From the NCBI GenBank assembly GCA_027424065.1, contig DAIBYH010000005.1, positions 1 to 17,449 on the forward strand: a stretch of 17,449 nucleotides of DNA. The letters are read 5' to 3'. A program made the position numbers and the translations under genes. The DNA is from Candidatus Parcubacteria bacterium. GTDB lineage: Bacteria; Patescibacteriota; Minisyncoccia; UBA6257; 2-01-FULL-56-20. The notes below the pieces were generated by a model. It had not been told where the DNA came from. It saw only the letters and a program-made list of their open reading frames with translations, and did not search any database. The first letter of the stretch is position 1. Each line of letters starts with the position of its first letter. Shown here one piece after another: positions 8,114 to 15,660 of this stretch.

Positions 8114-8503
8114 TCAGCGGGACGTGCCGTGTGGGATGGCGGAATGGCGCTTCACTTCGGTCACCCTGTTCGCCTTATCAACGAACACGACGACCGGGTT
8201 CAGGTTCTTCATTTCCGACGGCTCGAGCCATACCTCCGCGAGAATGATGATCTCATCTCCCGGCTGGAAGTGGCGGGCAGGCGGTCCGTTCAGACAGATG
8301 TCGCCGTTGCCGCGCTCGCCCGCCATGATGTATGTGCGCCAGAAGACGCCGTTGCTCCGGTTCGTGATGTTCACGTACTGGAACGGCACCATACCGGCGG
8401 CATCGAGCAGATCCTGATCGATCGTGATGGAACCGACGTAATTCAGGTCCGCCTGCGTCACCGTGGCGCGGTGGATCTTTGCCATACATGCTTCAATCAG
8501 CAT
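8114..8503 (-). CDS. panD: Aspartate 1-decarboxylase PanD
   Basis: A 129-residue pyruvoyl enzyme converting L-aspartate to beta-alanine for pantothenate and CoA. Starting at the ATG at 8503, numbering coincides with the E. coli protein: Lys9, the self-cleavage site Gly24-Ser25 (YVGSITIDQD), Thr57-Tyr58 (RTY) and Asn72 (LNG) all fall at the expected positions. The frame is open further upstream, but this start is backed by homology and by AAGGAG six bases before it, the clearest Shine-Dalgarno site in the window. It has its own promoter and a strong terminator, and no other pantothenate gene is nearby. Confidence 0.95.
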   Translation of the reverse strand: MLIEACMAKIHRATVTQADLNYVGSITIDQDLLDAAGMVPFQYVNITNRSNGVFWRTYIMAGERGNGDICLNGPPARHFQPGDEIIILAEVWLEPSEMKNLNPVVVFVDKANRVTEVKRHSAIPHGTSR

Positions 8504-8509
8504 GCGCTT

Positions 8510-8515
8510 CTCCTT
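8510..8515 (-). promoter_or_regulatory. panD: Shine-Dalgarno site of panD
   Basis: AAGGAG on the minus strand, six bases before the ATG at 8503. It fixes this start over the longer open frame and contrasts with the SD-less starts of most other genes here. Confidence 0.8.
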
Positions 8516-8540
8516 CTGACCCCAGTAGGGATCTGAAGAT

Positions 8541-8569
8541 ATTATGACACGAAAAATATATTTATGCAA
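8541..8569 (-). promoter_or_regulatory. Candidate panD promoter
   Basis: On the minus strand TTGCAT (8564-8569), a 17-base A/T-rich spacer and CATAAT (8541-8546). It leaves a leader of about 30 bases that carries the AAGGAG site. Confidence 0.5.
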
Positions 8570-8570
8570 G

Positions 8571-8656
8571 TCCCTCAGGCGCTCCTCCCTTTCAAGGGAG
8601 GAATTAGAGGAGGGTTTGACCCCTCCCTTTCGAGGGAGGGGGGGTCAGGGGAGGGA
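8571..8656. repeat. Composite palindromic repeat, copy A (upstream of DUF559 gene)
   Basis: Outer arms TCCCTC (8571-8576) and GAGGGA (8651-8656) enclose two hairpins. The first is TCCTCCCTT / AAGGGAGGA (8583-8591 / 8594-8602), followed by ATTAGAGGAGGG. The second is CCCCTCCCT / AGGGAGGGG (8620-8628 / 8633-8641) with a TTCG loop. It is a more degenerate relative of the units at 9136-9211 and 11421-11501. The strands are strongly pyrimidine/purine-biased. Confidence 0.85.
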
Positions 8657-8696
8657 AAGCAAGTGGGGGGTTATAAAAATTTAATGATCCGGCGGC

Positions 8697-8702
8697 TATG
8701 AT
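8697..8702 (+). promoter_or_regulatory. Candidate -10 box for the DUF559 gene
   Basis: TATGAT lies 14 bases before the ATG at 8717, downstream of repeat copy A and of an A/T-rich patch (8671-8684). I see no clear -35. Confidence 0.35.
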
Positions 8703-8716
8703 GACGACATCGGACC

Positions 8717-9085
8717 ATGGCCCATATTTTCAATCCACGATCATCAAGGTCAAAGCGAAAATACCTCCGCGCCGAAAGCACCCTCCCCGAACAACGACTG
8801 TGGTCGCGATTACGGGCGCGCCAGATCAATGGTTATAAATTTCGCCGCCAATTCGGCGTAGGAAATTTTATTTTGGATTTCTATTGTCCAAAACGGAAGC
8901 TCGCGATCGAGGTTGATGGAGATTCGCATGTAGGAAAAGAAAACGAACGATACGACGAACTGCGCGAAAAATATCTTGCGCAATACGGCATTCATTGCTT
9001 ACGATTTACGAACCATGAAATTATGGAAAATCTCGACGGTGTCGCGCAGAACATCTGGAATTTTTTAACGGATGACCCCTCCTGA
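8717..9085 (+). CDS. DUF559 endonuclease-like protein (Vsr/PD-(D/E)XK fold)
   Basis: A 122-residue single-domain protein of the DUF559 family, related in fold to very-short-patch-repair and other restriction-like endonucleases. Visible marks: STLPEQRLWSRLRARQINGYKFRRQ (E25 and the helix with W29), then FILDFYC (D54), KLAIEVDGDSH (E65, D67, H71), which together form the D...ExD-type metal site, and a C-terminal helix-strand ending CLRFTNHEIMENL. No partner methylase or specificity gene adjoins it. The codons are more A/T-rich than those of its neighbours. The last codons (Pro, Ser, TGA) lie inside the first bases of repeat copy B1 (9074-9123), and copy A lies upstream. Nuclease activity is inferred from the fold family; biological role is unknown. 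Confidence 0.88.
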   Translation: MAHIFNPRSSRSKRKYLRAESTLPEQRLWSRLRARQINGYKFRRQFGVGNFILDFYCPKRKLAIEVDGDSHVGKENERYDELREKYLAQYGIHCLRFTNHEIMENLDGVAQNIWNFLTDDPS

Positions 9086-9123
9086 CCTCCCCCCACTTCG
9101 CCGTAGCGGCTTCGCGGGGCGAG
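9074..9123. repeat. Composite repeat, partial copy B1 (contains DUF559 stop codon)
   Basis: Begins with GACCCCTCCTGACCTCCCC (9074-9092), identical to the left arm of copy B2. Its hairpin partner GGGGCGAG (9116-9123) is separated by a loop of about 23 bases carrying the small palindrome GCCGTAGCGGC instead of a tetraloop. The right half of the unit is missing. The TGA of the DUF559 gene is at 9083-9085. Confidence 0.8.
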
Positions 9124-9135
9124 CCCTTAGAAAAA

Positions 9136-9211
9136 CCCCTCCTGACCTCCCCTTGGAAAAGGGGAGGAATTTATTTCCTCCTACCTTTCAAGGTAGGAGT
9201 TAGAGGAGGGG
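9136..9211. repeat. Composite palindromic repeat, full copy B2
   Basis: A 76-bp unit with outer arms CCCCTCCT and AGGAGGGG and two inner hairpins. The left one is CCTCCCCTT / AAGGGGAGG with a GGAA loop; the right one is TCCTACCTT / AAGGTAGGA. It aligns almost base for base with the reverse complement of 11421-11501. On the minus strand the outer stem is followed by TTTTT (9131-9135), so it can act as the intrinsic terminator of glyA, whose stop is at 9226. Confidence 0.9.
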
Positions 9212-9225
9212 AAATGAGCGGGGGT

Positions 9226-10479
9226 TTATGCCTCGATGCCGGGAACCGGGAACTTGAGCGCGAACTCCCGGACGCGGCCGCGCACCTCCGCGAGCTTTGC
9301 ATCGTCGTTCCGATGCGCGAGCGCGTCATCCATGAGGTCGGCAACGGTCTGCATATCGCTTTCCTTGCAACCGCGCGTCGTGAGCGCCGGCGTTCCCAGG
9401 CGGATACCCGACGGATCCATCGGTTTCCGCGCATCGAACGGGATCATGTTCTTATTGATGGAGATGCCGGTCCGCTCCAGGGCTTTCTCCCCTTCCTTGC
9501 CGGTGATCTCCTTGCTGCCGAAAAGGTCCACCAGCATGAGATGATTGTCCGTGCCTCCGGAAACCACGCGATATCCCTTTTTCTGCAATGCGTCCGCGAG
9601 CGCACGGGCATTCGCGATCACCTGCGCGGAATAGGTTTGGAACTCTGGCCGAAGCGCCTCGCCGTAGGCAACCGCCTTCGCGGCGATGATGTGTTCGTGC
9701 GGACCGCCCTGGACGCCCGGAAAGACCGCCTTATCAATGGCCGACGCGAACTGCTCTTTGCACATGATCATGGCGCCCCGCGGACCACGCAGGGTCTTGT
9801 GCGTCGTCGTAGAGACCACATCGCAGAACGGGACGGGGTTTTCAAGCTGCTTTCCGGCAATAAGCCCTGCAATGTGGGCAATATCGGCAAAGAGATAGGC
9901 GCCAACCTTGTCGGCGATGGCGCGGAACCGTTTCCAATCAAATGACCGGGAGTACGCCGAGAATCCCGCAAGGATCATCCGCGGCCGCTCGCGCAGCGCG
10001 ATGGCCTCCACTTCGTCCATGTCGATCGTTTCCGTTTCCTTCCCCACGAAGTACGGCGCGATCGTGTAGAGCTTGCCCGAAAAGTTCAGCGGATGGCCGT
10101 GCGACAAATGGCCGCCCTGGTCCAGCGAAAATCCGAGCACCTTGTCCCCCGGCTGAAGCAGCGCCATATACACCGCGAGATTCGCCGGCGAACCGGAGAG
10201 CGGCTGGACGTTCACGTGCTCCGCGCCGAAAAGTTCCTGGGCGCGGCGGATGGCGAGATTCTCCACCTCATCGATCACCTCATTGCCGCCGTAATACCGC
10301 TTGCCGGGATAGCCCTCGCTGTATTTGTTCGTGAGCACCGATCCCATGGCCTCCAGCACGGCGCGCGAAACATAGTTCTCGCTCGCGATCAGTTCGATGC
10401 CTTCCCGCTCACGCGCCTCTTCCCGCTTCAGGATCTCATAGACCGCGGGATCCTCTTTTGCTACGTTCGGATAGTTCAT
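9226..10479 (-). CDS. glyA: Serine hydroxymethyltransferase GlyA
   Basis: A 417-residue PLP enzyme converting serine and tetrahydrofolate to glycine and 5,10-methylene-THF in the cytosol. Family text runs throughout: ELIASENYVSRAVLEAMGS, TNKYSEGYPGKRYYGGNEVID, NVQPLSGSPANLAVY, FADIAHIAGLIAG, and the PLP lysine in TTTHKTLRGPRGAM. GGTDNHLMLVDL and RLGTPALTTRG follow in the C-terminal domain. The start is the ATG at 10479 (MNYPNVAKEDP) by homology, although the frame remains open upstream. Length is normal. It is monocistronic, with repeat B2 as the likely terminator, and lies divergent from dcd across a MITE-like element. Confidence 0.96.
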   Translation of the reverse strand: MNYPNVAKEDPAVYEILKREEAREREGIELIASENYVSRAVLEAMGSVLTNKYSEGYPGKRYYGGNEVIDEVENLAIRRAQELFGAEHVNVQPLSGSPANLAVYMALLQPGDKVLGFSLDQGGHLSHGHPLNFSGKLYTIAPYFVGKETETIDMDEVEAIALRERPRMILAGFSAYSRSFDWKRFRAIADKVGAYLFADIAHIAGLIAGKQLENPVPFCDVVSTTTHKTLRGPRGAMIMCKEQFASAIDKAVFPGVQGGPHEHIIAAKAVAYGEALRPEFQTYSAQVIANARALADALQKKGYRVVSGGTDNHLMLVDLFGSKEITGKEGEKALERTGISINKNMIPFDARKPMDPSGIRLGTPALTTRGCKESDMQTVADLMDDALAHRNDDAKLAEVRGRVREFALKFPVPGIEA

Positions 10480-10499
10480 GGGTCGGTTGGAATGTCTCC

Positions 10500-10507
10500 A
10501 TTGTATA
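10500..10507 (-). promoter_or_regulatory. Candidate glyA -10 box
   Basis: The minus strand reads TATACAAT, giving TATACA or TACAAT, about 20 bases before the glyA ATG. There is no good -35 and no Shine-Dalgarno site at a useful distance. It lies just outside the MITE-like element. Confidence 0.4.
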
Positions 10508-10536
10508 CCTCTTCCGGGAAAACCGGAAAGGGTGCG

Positions 10537-10808
10537 AGAACCTATCCAAAAACTGTTCCGTCCGCGTTGTGGGCCATGGGCCGTGAGCGCAAGGCGCAAG
10601 GGAAAGACAGTAGCCCAAGCTACGGCTTCCCCGAAGCAACGCAGCGATCGTGGATCATGGCCCACAACCCTCCGGGATCCGGCTCCTTTCGGCAAACGCA
10701 TCGTTCCTGCGGGAGTCATCGTGCCCACGGGCACGCCTCCTCCCTGGCGCCTCGCGCTTGCCGAAAGGGGCCGGGATCGCGGACTGGAATAGTTTTTGGA
10801 TAGGTTCT
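10537..10808. mobile_element. MITE-like element with long terminal inverted repeats and two internal hairpins
   Basis: The ends AGAACCTATCCAAAAACT (10537-10554) and AGTTTTTGGATAGGTTCT (10791-10808) are perfect 18-bp inverted repeats. The match continues inward to about 30 bp with one mismatch and one indel. Inside, GTTGTGGGCCATG / CATGGCCCACAAC (10566-10578 / 10656-10668) form one hairpin whose tip is GTAGC-CCAA-GCTAC. A second pairs 10676-10699 with 10754-10778 and carries GTGCCC-AC-GGGCAC inside. I see no plausible protein and no clear target-site duplication. It fills most of the 341-base glyA-dcd gap, and its right end abuts the -10 box of dcd. Confidence 0.8.
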
Positions 10809-11411: not shown

Positions 11412-11420
11412 GAATAAAAA

Positions 11421-11501
11421 GACCCCTCCTCTGACTCCTCCCTCGAAAGGGAGGAGGAGTTAAACTCCTTCCCCTTATCTAAGGGGAGGTCAGGAGGGGT
11501 C
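11421..11501. repeat. Composite palindromic repeat, full copy C
   Basis: Outer arms GACCCCTCCT (11421-11430) and AGGAGGGGTC (11492-11501) enclose CTCCTCCCT-CGAA-AGGGAGGAG and CCCCTTA-TC-TAAGGGG hairpins. In reverse complement it aligns with copy B2 over the whole unit. A's precede the left arm (11416-11420), so on the minus strand the outer stem is followed by TTTTTATT and can terminate the pil operon. It fills the gap between the convergent dcd and pil genes. Confidence 0.9.
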
Positions 11502-15583: not shown

Positions 15584-15655
15584 GCCCTCGTCGTTCAACG
15601 GATAGGACGCAAGATTGCGGATCTTGTAATTGAGGTTCGATTCCTCACGAGGGCA
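15584..15655 (+). tRNA. tRNA-Arg, anticodon GCG
   Basis: A complete cloverleaf: acceptor GCCCTCG / CGAGGGC, D arm GTTC-AACGGATA-GGAC, anticodon arm CAAGA-TTGCGGA-TCTTG, variable TAAT, T arm TGAGG-TTCGATT-CCTCA, discriminator A. The anticodon is GCG (reads CGC/CGU). Arg identity elements A20 in the D loop and C35 are present. The 3' CCA is not encoded (CGTG follows). Most bacteria use ACG, edited to ICG, for this box, so GCG is unusual. A strong hairpin terminator follows. Confidence 0.93.
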
Positions 15656-15660
15656 CGTGT

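Follow-up and report, generated by a model that had tools for sequence, protein, structure and literature searches.

The window (the whole 17,449-nt stretch of Candidatus Parcubacteria DNA analyzed) probably carries one copy of a small mobile element, the DUF559 protein of which would recognise, cut and spread its half-repeats. The element would consist of a DUF559 nuclease gene with half-repeats as its borders; a half-repeat comprises a pyrimidine arm, a hairpin with a C/T stem and, between the two, a short gap. The gene-less repeats dispersed in the genome would be its non-autonomous derivatives. The protein would recognise its own folded half-repeat and nick or cut where the gap separates arm and hairpin; the element would then be copied by host repair or replication into a new site or into an allele with a single hairpin. 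That DUF559 performs both cutting and mobilisation we infer from sequence comparisons, and one enzyme may account for the homing-like pattern observed in Xanthomonas as well as for the gene-less copies scattered in genomes.

The gene (ATG at 8717, TGA at 9083-9085), the product of which matches Pfam DUF559 with an E value of 2.6e-32, has as neighbours panD (8114-8569) and glyA (9226-10614), both on the minus strand. Its G+C content is 46.1% vs. 58.7% for the window, in agreement with the sequence-only reading, which had described an A/T-rich gene packaged between repeats, with its stop codon inside one of them. Half-repeats reside indeed on both sides, a complete repeat follows downstream (Table 1), and the 3' end of the gene reads GAT GAC CCC TCC TGA, CCCCTCCTGA (9076-9085) corresponding to the left arm and gap of B1, with the stop in the gap. 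The single upstream copy of that reading is really two right half-repeats, the first recognised through repeat families D3 and D4. The B1 hairpin is broken by another palindrome (9093-9125). As single-stranded DNA, B2 folds into a cloverleaf (-24 kcal/mol; z -5.10, 9135-9214), and the second compact element reaches z -5.46 (11420-11501, minus strand). Three stretches (z -5.10, -5.46 and -3.36) fold better than at least 197 of 200 shuffles; the fold of the upstream half-repeat pair is weaker (z -2.64). The left half is approximately a pyrimidine mirror repeat, and by its sequence could form an intrastrand triplex as described for TM_ECO motifs.

Table 1. Position of the DUF559 gene and of its repeats in the window.
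Feature	Position	Strand	Description
DUF559 (PF04480) single-domain nuclease-like gene, 122 aa	8717..9085	+	Pfam, alignment, model
Right half-repeat 1	8582..8614	+	hairpin CTCCTCCC..GGGAGGA, gap, arm AGGAGGG toward the DUF559 gene
Right half-repeat 2	8620..8655	+	hairpin CCCCTCCC..GGGAGGGG, gap, arm GGGGAGGG
Left half-repeat B1	9076..9134	+	arm CCCCTCC, gap with stop TGA, stem CCTCCCC
Complete gene-less (compact) element B2	9136..9211	+	left half then right half
Second complete compact element	11423..11500	-	intergenic, after dcd; inverted repeats I1-I3, I18

The source genome (533 kb in 83 contigs, 85% complete) has a single PF04480 match, 15 exact CCCCTCCTNNCCTCCCC arms, and 19 sites that fit the left-arm pattern if two mismatches or fewer are allowed; a control with the pattern read backward gave 8 sites, but the arm comes close to being a mirror repeat. 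The repeats exceed what chance would give, as most of the 19 copies have by eye a common layout of about 77 nt; the sequence of the arm-hairpin gap varies among copies.

PF04480 was found in 101 of 379 genomes sampled within the phylum. The phylum set includes 92 loci (L001, L021-L051 and 60 fetched from the upper part of the match list), 90 of which have enough flank; the nine matches that fall within long open frames are dealt with separately. The half-repeat detector was built after inspection of 15 phylum loci, and used unchanged on a holdout of 80 loci from named genomes (77 usable), mostly Pseudomonadota, with Chloroflexi, Nitrospiria, Gastranaerophilales and others. Half-repeats were detected upstream in 69, downstream in 70, on both sides in 60 and on one side or more in 79 of the 90 phylum loci, and in 61, 55, 49 and 67, respectively, of the 77 holdout loci. 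Random positions had half-repeats upstream in 50, downstream in 39 and on both sides in 3 of 2373 cases in the phylum set (54, 38 and 6 of 2111 in the holdout set). Among ORFs of 100 aa or more other than DUF559 in these loci, half-repeats were present at both ends in 1/300 and 1/97 cases, and at one end or more in 31 and 15, respectively. The detector found no half-repeat in 11/90 phylum and 10/77 holdout loci, some having half-repeats with longer loops visible by eye. The enrichment proposed in the sequence-only reading is therefore seen, and its scope is wider than suggested there (Patescibacteria, CCCCTCCTGACCTCCCC sequence), as it extends to other phyla and other repeat sequences. The flanks compared show that gene and repeats co-occur across phyla.

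By adding 19 of 25 strong enterobacterial loci to the 92 phylum and 80 holdout loci, 191 loci were available for comparison (left out were L212 and L227, at contig ends, L220 and L225, the same as L128 and L127, and L231 and L232, interrupted by an inner stop). Most frequent among the nearest arrangements is right half, gene, left half (93/191 loci), with arms directed inward to the gene; no half-repeat was detected in 23/191. Enterobacterial loci usually feature, by eye, the gene followed by a left-right element, the upstream side being repeat-free. Several enterobacterial genes (L213-L232) are preceded by the inverted repeats CTGGAA..TTCCAG or CTGCCAG..CTGGCAG, perhaps an operator; a different hairpin is found upstream of E. 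coli ycjD. In five plasmid loci inspected, repeats are visible next to the gene; no clean gene-less site was found for plasmid loci of Azospirillum and Sinorhizobium. Two identical DUF559 genes are arranged in tandem at L106 (genome G251), 565 nt apart and with matching flanks, likely the result of recombination between flanking repeats. The notion that any PF04480 domain carries repeats was rejected, as half-repeats were found in 0/10 cases at the ORF ends of weak partial matches in other proteins (L052-L056, L058-L060, L062, L064; left out were L057, as its contig is short, and L061, L063 and L065, all three from the repeat-carrying genome G398).

The sequence of the repeats varies with that of the protein. 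In the 168 of 191 loci with a detected half-repeat, mean repeat similarity rises from 0.413 at 30-40% protein identity to 0.862 at 70-80%; the Spearman correlation is 0.24, as high a value being found in 0/300 permutations, shared ancestry of the hosts being retained in this figure. Repeats of one genome (45 pairs) are not more alike than repeats of different genomes (0.456 vs. 0.458). For 31 loci, the closest protein of which resides in a foreign genome, the repeat is nearer to the foreign one in 19, to that of the own paralogue in 9 (p 0.044). These comparisons show that repeat sequence follows protein sequence.

The number of repeats varies with the presence of the gene. Among 61 genomes (the source and its nearest relatives), strong single-domain DUF559 genes are found only in the source genome and in G398, nine more genomes having weak or partial matches only. 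The same two genomes are the only repeat-rich ones, with 15 exact sites in the source, and 1 exact site plus 17 in the backward-read variant in G398, where the gene (L051) lies between complete elements; the remaining relatives have a single site in one genome, and zero in 58. In the enterobacterial family of Enterobacter G436 (198 genomes), at least ten CCCTCNCCCNNNCCCTCNCCC sites are found in 21/25 genomes whose DUF559 match is strong (E of 1e-27 or better) and in 5/172 lacking such a match (p 7.5e-20, kinship ignored); limited to genomes of at least 3 Mb, the figures are 21/25 vs. 5/98 (p 2.8e-15, kinship again ignored). G480, which has a broken gene and 25 sites, was excluded; an inner TGA interrupts 2 of the 25 strong matches. 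The genomes having the gene and no CCCTCNCCCNNNCCCTCNCCC sites (G520, G578, G600 and G621) carry four of the five lowest-scoring among the 25 genes; half-repeats of other sequence are seen by eye on at least one side of the gene in G520, G578 and G621, a looser relative of them in G600. Coincidence of gene and repeats in 2 of 61 genomes, and their association in enterobacteria, match the linked distribution called for by the sequence-only reading, and the genomes compared show that repeat number follows gene presence.

Both gene-less and gene-bearing forms are polymorphic. In the fepB-entC interval, a 186-nt stretch containing a right-left pair is missing from two E. coli alleles (the K-12 allele is covered over at least 80% in 2752/5426 genomes); in the hrpB-mrcB interval, two alleles are likewise devoid of such a pair (96-nt alignment gap, with a ragged right edge). 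In strain War 64 nt are missing inside the hrpB-mrcB pair, and one hairpin is left. A target duplication, TAA, is possible at fepB-entC, none is clear at hrpB-mrcB. The length of the alx-sstT site varies also among the E. coli matches listed.

The nine long open frames containing DUF559 were read separately. Units reside in frame inside threonylcarbamoyl-AMP synthase (L301), MurD (L296) and riboflavin synthase (L302), and, judging by domain order, inside a radical-SAM protein resembling Elp3 (L298). L299 looks similar, but the Pfam domain of the host was not found; in L294, L295, L297 and L300 DUF559 abuts or runs into its neighbour. The MurD loop was aligned in 22 genera of one CPR family (the motif was recognised in 22/25 loci), and is empty in 19, contains a gene-less left-right element in frame in 2 (G234 and G684), and a gene-bearing unit in 1 (G300). 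DUF559 is found at the MurD site also in G696 (a search match, in one 667-aa frame). More matches in open frames of 350-600 aa (G685, G693, G695, G697 and others) may be further in-frame insertions. The alignments show that the gene-bearing unit and the gene-less form occupy the same in-frame MurD site. Short elements, present or absent between relatives, and sharing their ends with a gene-bearing unit, as MITEs do, are therefore found at the E. coli alleles and in the MurD loop.

At one Xanthomonas site, sampled in 35 genomes, 30 of which entered the flank tree, the gene is present in 24/30 and absent in 6/30 loci, a distribution corresponding to at least five changes on the tree. All gene-less alleles with clean anchors (7/7; G668 and G657 are excluded from the tally) keep one hairpin, which is A/T-flanked and resembles an intrinsic terminator; in G673, an eighth gene-less allele, the hairpin is not clear. 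The gene is 99.0% identical in L258 and L276, the right flank 85.7%; conversely, L268 and L270 have flanks 91% and 96% identical, and genes 77.6% identical. Identity of gene and right flank correlate with a Spearman coefficient of 0.46 over 276 pairs, and the gene tree is weakly supported, with 4 of 21 inner branches starred. As judged from these sequences, gene and flank histories differ in places. The left side of the gene in L276 is non-orthologous, the true flank being on another contig, which reflects either a rearrangement or an assembly break at the repeat. Empty and occupied sites, the comparison of which had been recommended in the sequence-only reading, are hence observed for E. coli repeats, the Xanthomonas gene and the MurD loop, and the comparison shows that gene-bearing and gene-less forms are both present or absent between relatives.

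The residues E25, D54, E65, D67 and H71 are invariant in a 63-row DUF559 alignment. The predicted model (pLDDT 84) best matches 3hrl, a relative from Neisseria (TM-score 0.86 by target length), and, as the closest solved fold after it, the homing endonuclease I-Bth0305I (PDB 3r3p; TM-score 0.80 by target length, E 2.2e-5), which we take to be of the 'EDxHD/Vsr-like' type; both are matched by sequence search as well. The match to Vsr is weak (E 0.022), and the protein falls short of the Vsr family (TIGR00632), with 14.7 bits vs. a cut-off of 97.85. YcjD has been listed as a PD-(D/E)XK member, its profile detecting Vsr (PMC1189080, partial text). A role in restriction-modification was rejected: no methylase was noticed among the ORFs of the window, and PADLOC gave partial matches only (DpdF 1.6e-6, mREase_II 2e-5, PDC-S69 and HEase weaker). 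The claim that the gene has no methylase partner hence stands for the ORFs of the window, only four proteins of which were scanned with Pfam. Plasmid cargo was rejected too, the ycjD protein matching 43/72,556 plasmid records, some of them chromosome-sized, as was phage cargo, the window protein matching 3/50,697 phage records.

The likeness to I-Bth0305I, which extends from the fold to gain and loss at one Xanthomonas site, raises the tentative alternative that DUF559 is a homing enzyme, cutting alleles with a single hairpin so that repair copies the gene between hairpins, the repeats being spread otherwise. The hairpin retained in the seven clean Xanthomonas alleles, and the near-identical genes between diverged right flanks in L258 and L276, speak for homing. 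Yet homing leaves unexplained both the repeat numbers tracking the gene and the many different insertion sites, and a deletion could have left the single hairpin, as suggested by the E. coli War allele. DUF559, moreover, was not seen in introns or inteins, and is bounded by dispersed repeats. Some points also weigh against the reading preferred here, mobilisation of the whole element by DUF559: loss to a single hairpin could be due to plain recombination, the two orientations found, arms inward and arms outward, fit no single simple transposition scheme, and clear target duplications were not seen. It is improbable, and already disfavoured, that the hairpins are ordinary terminators or recombination hot spots where DUF559 tends to land or survive. 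The terminator-like hairpin kept in gene-less Xanthomonas alleles agrees with such an origin, but ordinary ORFs are doubly flanked in only 1/300 and 1/97 cases, repeat sequence follows the DUF559 protein, the repeat type is nearly absent from most gene-less genomes, and units within MurD frames bear half-repeats. Least credible is that another enzyme, a RAYT/HUH transposase, spreads the repeats, with DUF559 as passenger or regulator: the RAYT domain, PF01797, has a match in the E. coli control genome, but none was found in the source genome (85% complete), where a RAYT was rejected on this ground, and both repeat sequence and repeat number follow DUF559.

The DUF559 element shares the hallmarks of REP/RAYT systems and REPINs. 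Those listed for RAYTs in the accessible text of Nunvar 2010 (PMC2817692) are flanking inverted palindromes, gene-repeat co-evolution, and abundance tracking the gene; DUF559 genes lie between two inverted palindromic repeats (60/90 and 49/77 loci), and repeats vary with the enzyme in sequence and with the gene in abundance (kinship ignored). The enzymes differ, the REP/RAYT one being an HUH Y1 transposase, DUF559 a PF04480 protein with a PD-(D/E)XK/Vsr-like fold. As the unit encodes PF04480 and no HUH domain (Y1_Tnp, PF01797), the latter being absent from matches in the source genome, the DUF559 element is set outside REP/RAYT. Since RAYT hallmarks recur, and no link between DUF559 and repeats was found in the open-access literature (most subscription papers and bioRxiv fell outside the search), the element is regarded as functionally REP/RAYT-like, with an unrelated enzyme. 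The REP/RAYT-like reading made from the sequence alone gains support from enrichment, linked distribution, and empty and occupied sites; mobilisation itself we infer. DUF559 repeats differ from REPs because made up by arm, gap and hairpin of C/T tracts, and because some units reside in frame inside genes. Compared with the GTAG or CGTC tag at the foot of REP palindromes, the enterobacterial gap is mostly of the TAA/TTA or CGG/CCG type, and that of the source genome is varied. Rickettsia palindromic elements also insert in frame into protein genes, and are likened here by description only; we know of no nuclease gene associated with them.

By sequence, the enterobacterial DUF559-associated repeats are the orphan PIT/TM_ECO motifs, G/C-rich palindromes found in E. 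coli and over 260 genomes, described as intrastrand-triplex motifs and linked to instability (Holder 2015, PMC4666352); in the accessible text of the same paper, neither a mobility gene nor any functional class is described next to them. The repeats fit the published consensus, CCCTCNCCC N3-6 GGGNGAGGG N3 GGGNGAGGG, in its two-block form and, like the motifs, occur as inverted pairs in which one partner has a T-type gap and the other a C-type gap. In Enterobacter G436, the 33 close pairs picked from the sites listed are all left-then-right, and 32/33 combine one T-type and one C-type gap; by coordinates, 4/5 published E. coli pairs are right-then-left. The window variant, with CCCCTCC arms, has the same layout, but not the exact consensus. 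E. coli K-12 carries a DUF559 gene, ycjD, the product of which is 40% identical to that of the window gene, although the PF04480 profile had no match in the E. coli control genome. The end of ycjD leads into a partial repeat; 168 nt past its stop lies TM_ECO no. 9. The locus is covered over at least 80% in 3362/5426 E. coli genomes; a clean empty site was not found, other E. coli having eefRABCD there (PMC12817139, partial text).

It is moderately likely that YcjD-type DUF559 proteins drive minimal elements throughout bacteria, by homing at hairpins, by spread of gene-less copies, including PIT/TM_ECO motifs, and by in-frame insertion, one small PD-(D/E)XK nuclease and two triplex-capable palindromic ends making up the whole. 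Such elements would realise the REP/RAYT lifestyle a second time and by unrelated means, as mobile units able to reside in frame within housekeeping genes such as murD. The widespread DUF559 family would gain a candidate function, and the orphan, instability-linked palindromes a candidate partner gene; ycjD is such a candidate in K-12, and the question is therefore directly testable in a laboratory strain.

Further palindromic sequences reside in the window. The palindrome inside the B1 hairpin (9093-9125), built around AGCGGCTTCGCGGGGCGAGC, belongs to a second family; identical or similar sequences are found next to or within other repeats of the genome, and also in L007, L013 and L014. It is perhaps a nested element. 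A palindrome-rich region of about 270 nt (10537-10808), near the start of glyA and before dcd, contains three inverted repeats (23 nt, 96% complementary; 25 nt, 80%; 21 nt, 90%), and differs from the DUF559 repeats. A tRNA-Arg (GCG) gene is found close to the window end (15584-15656).
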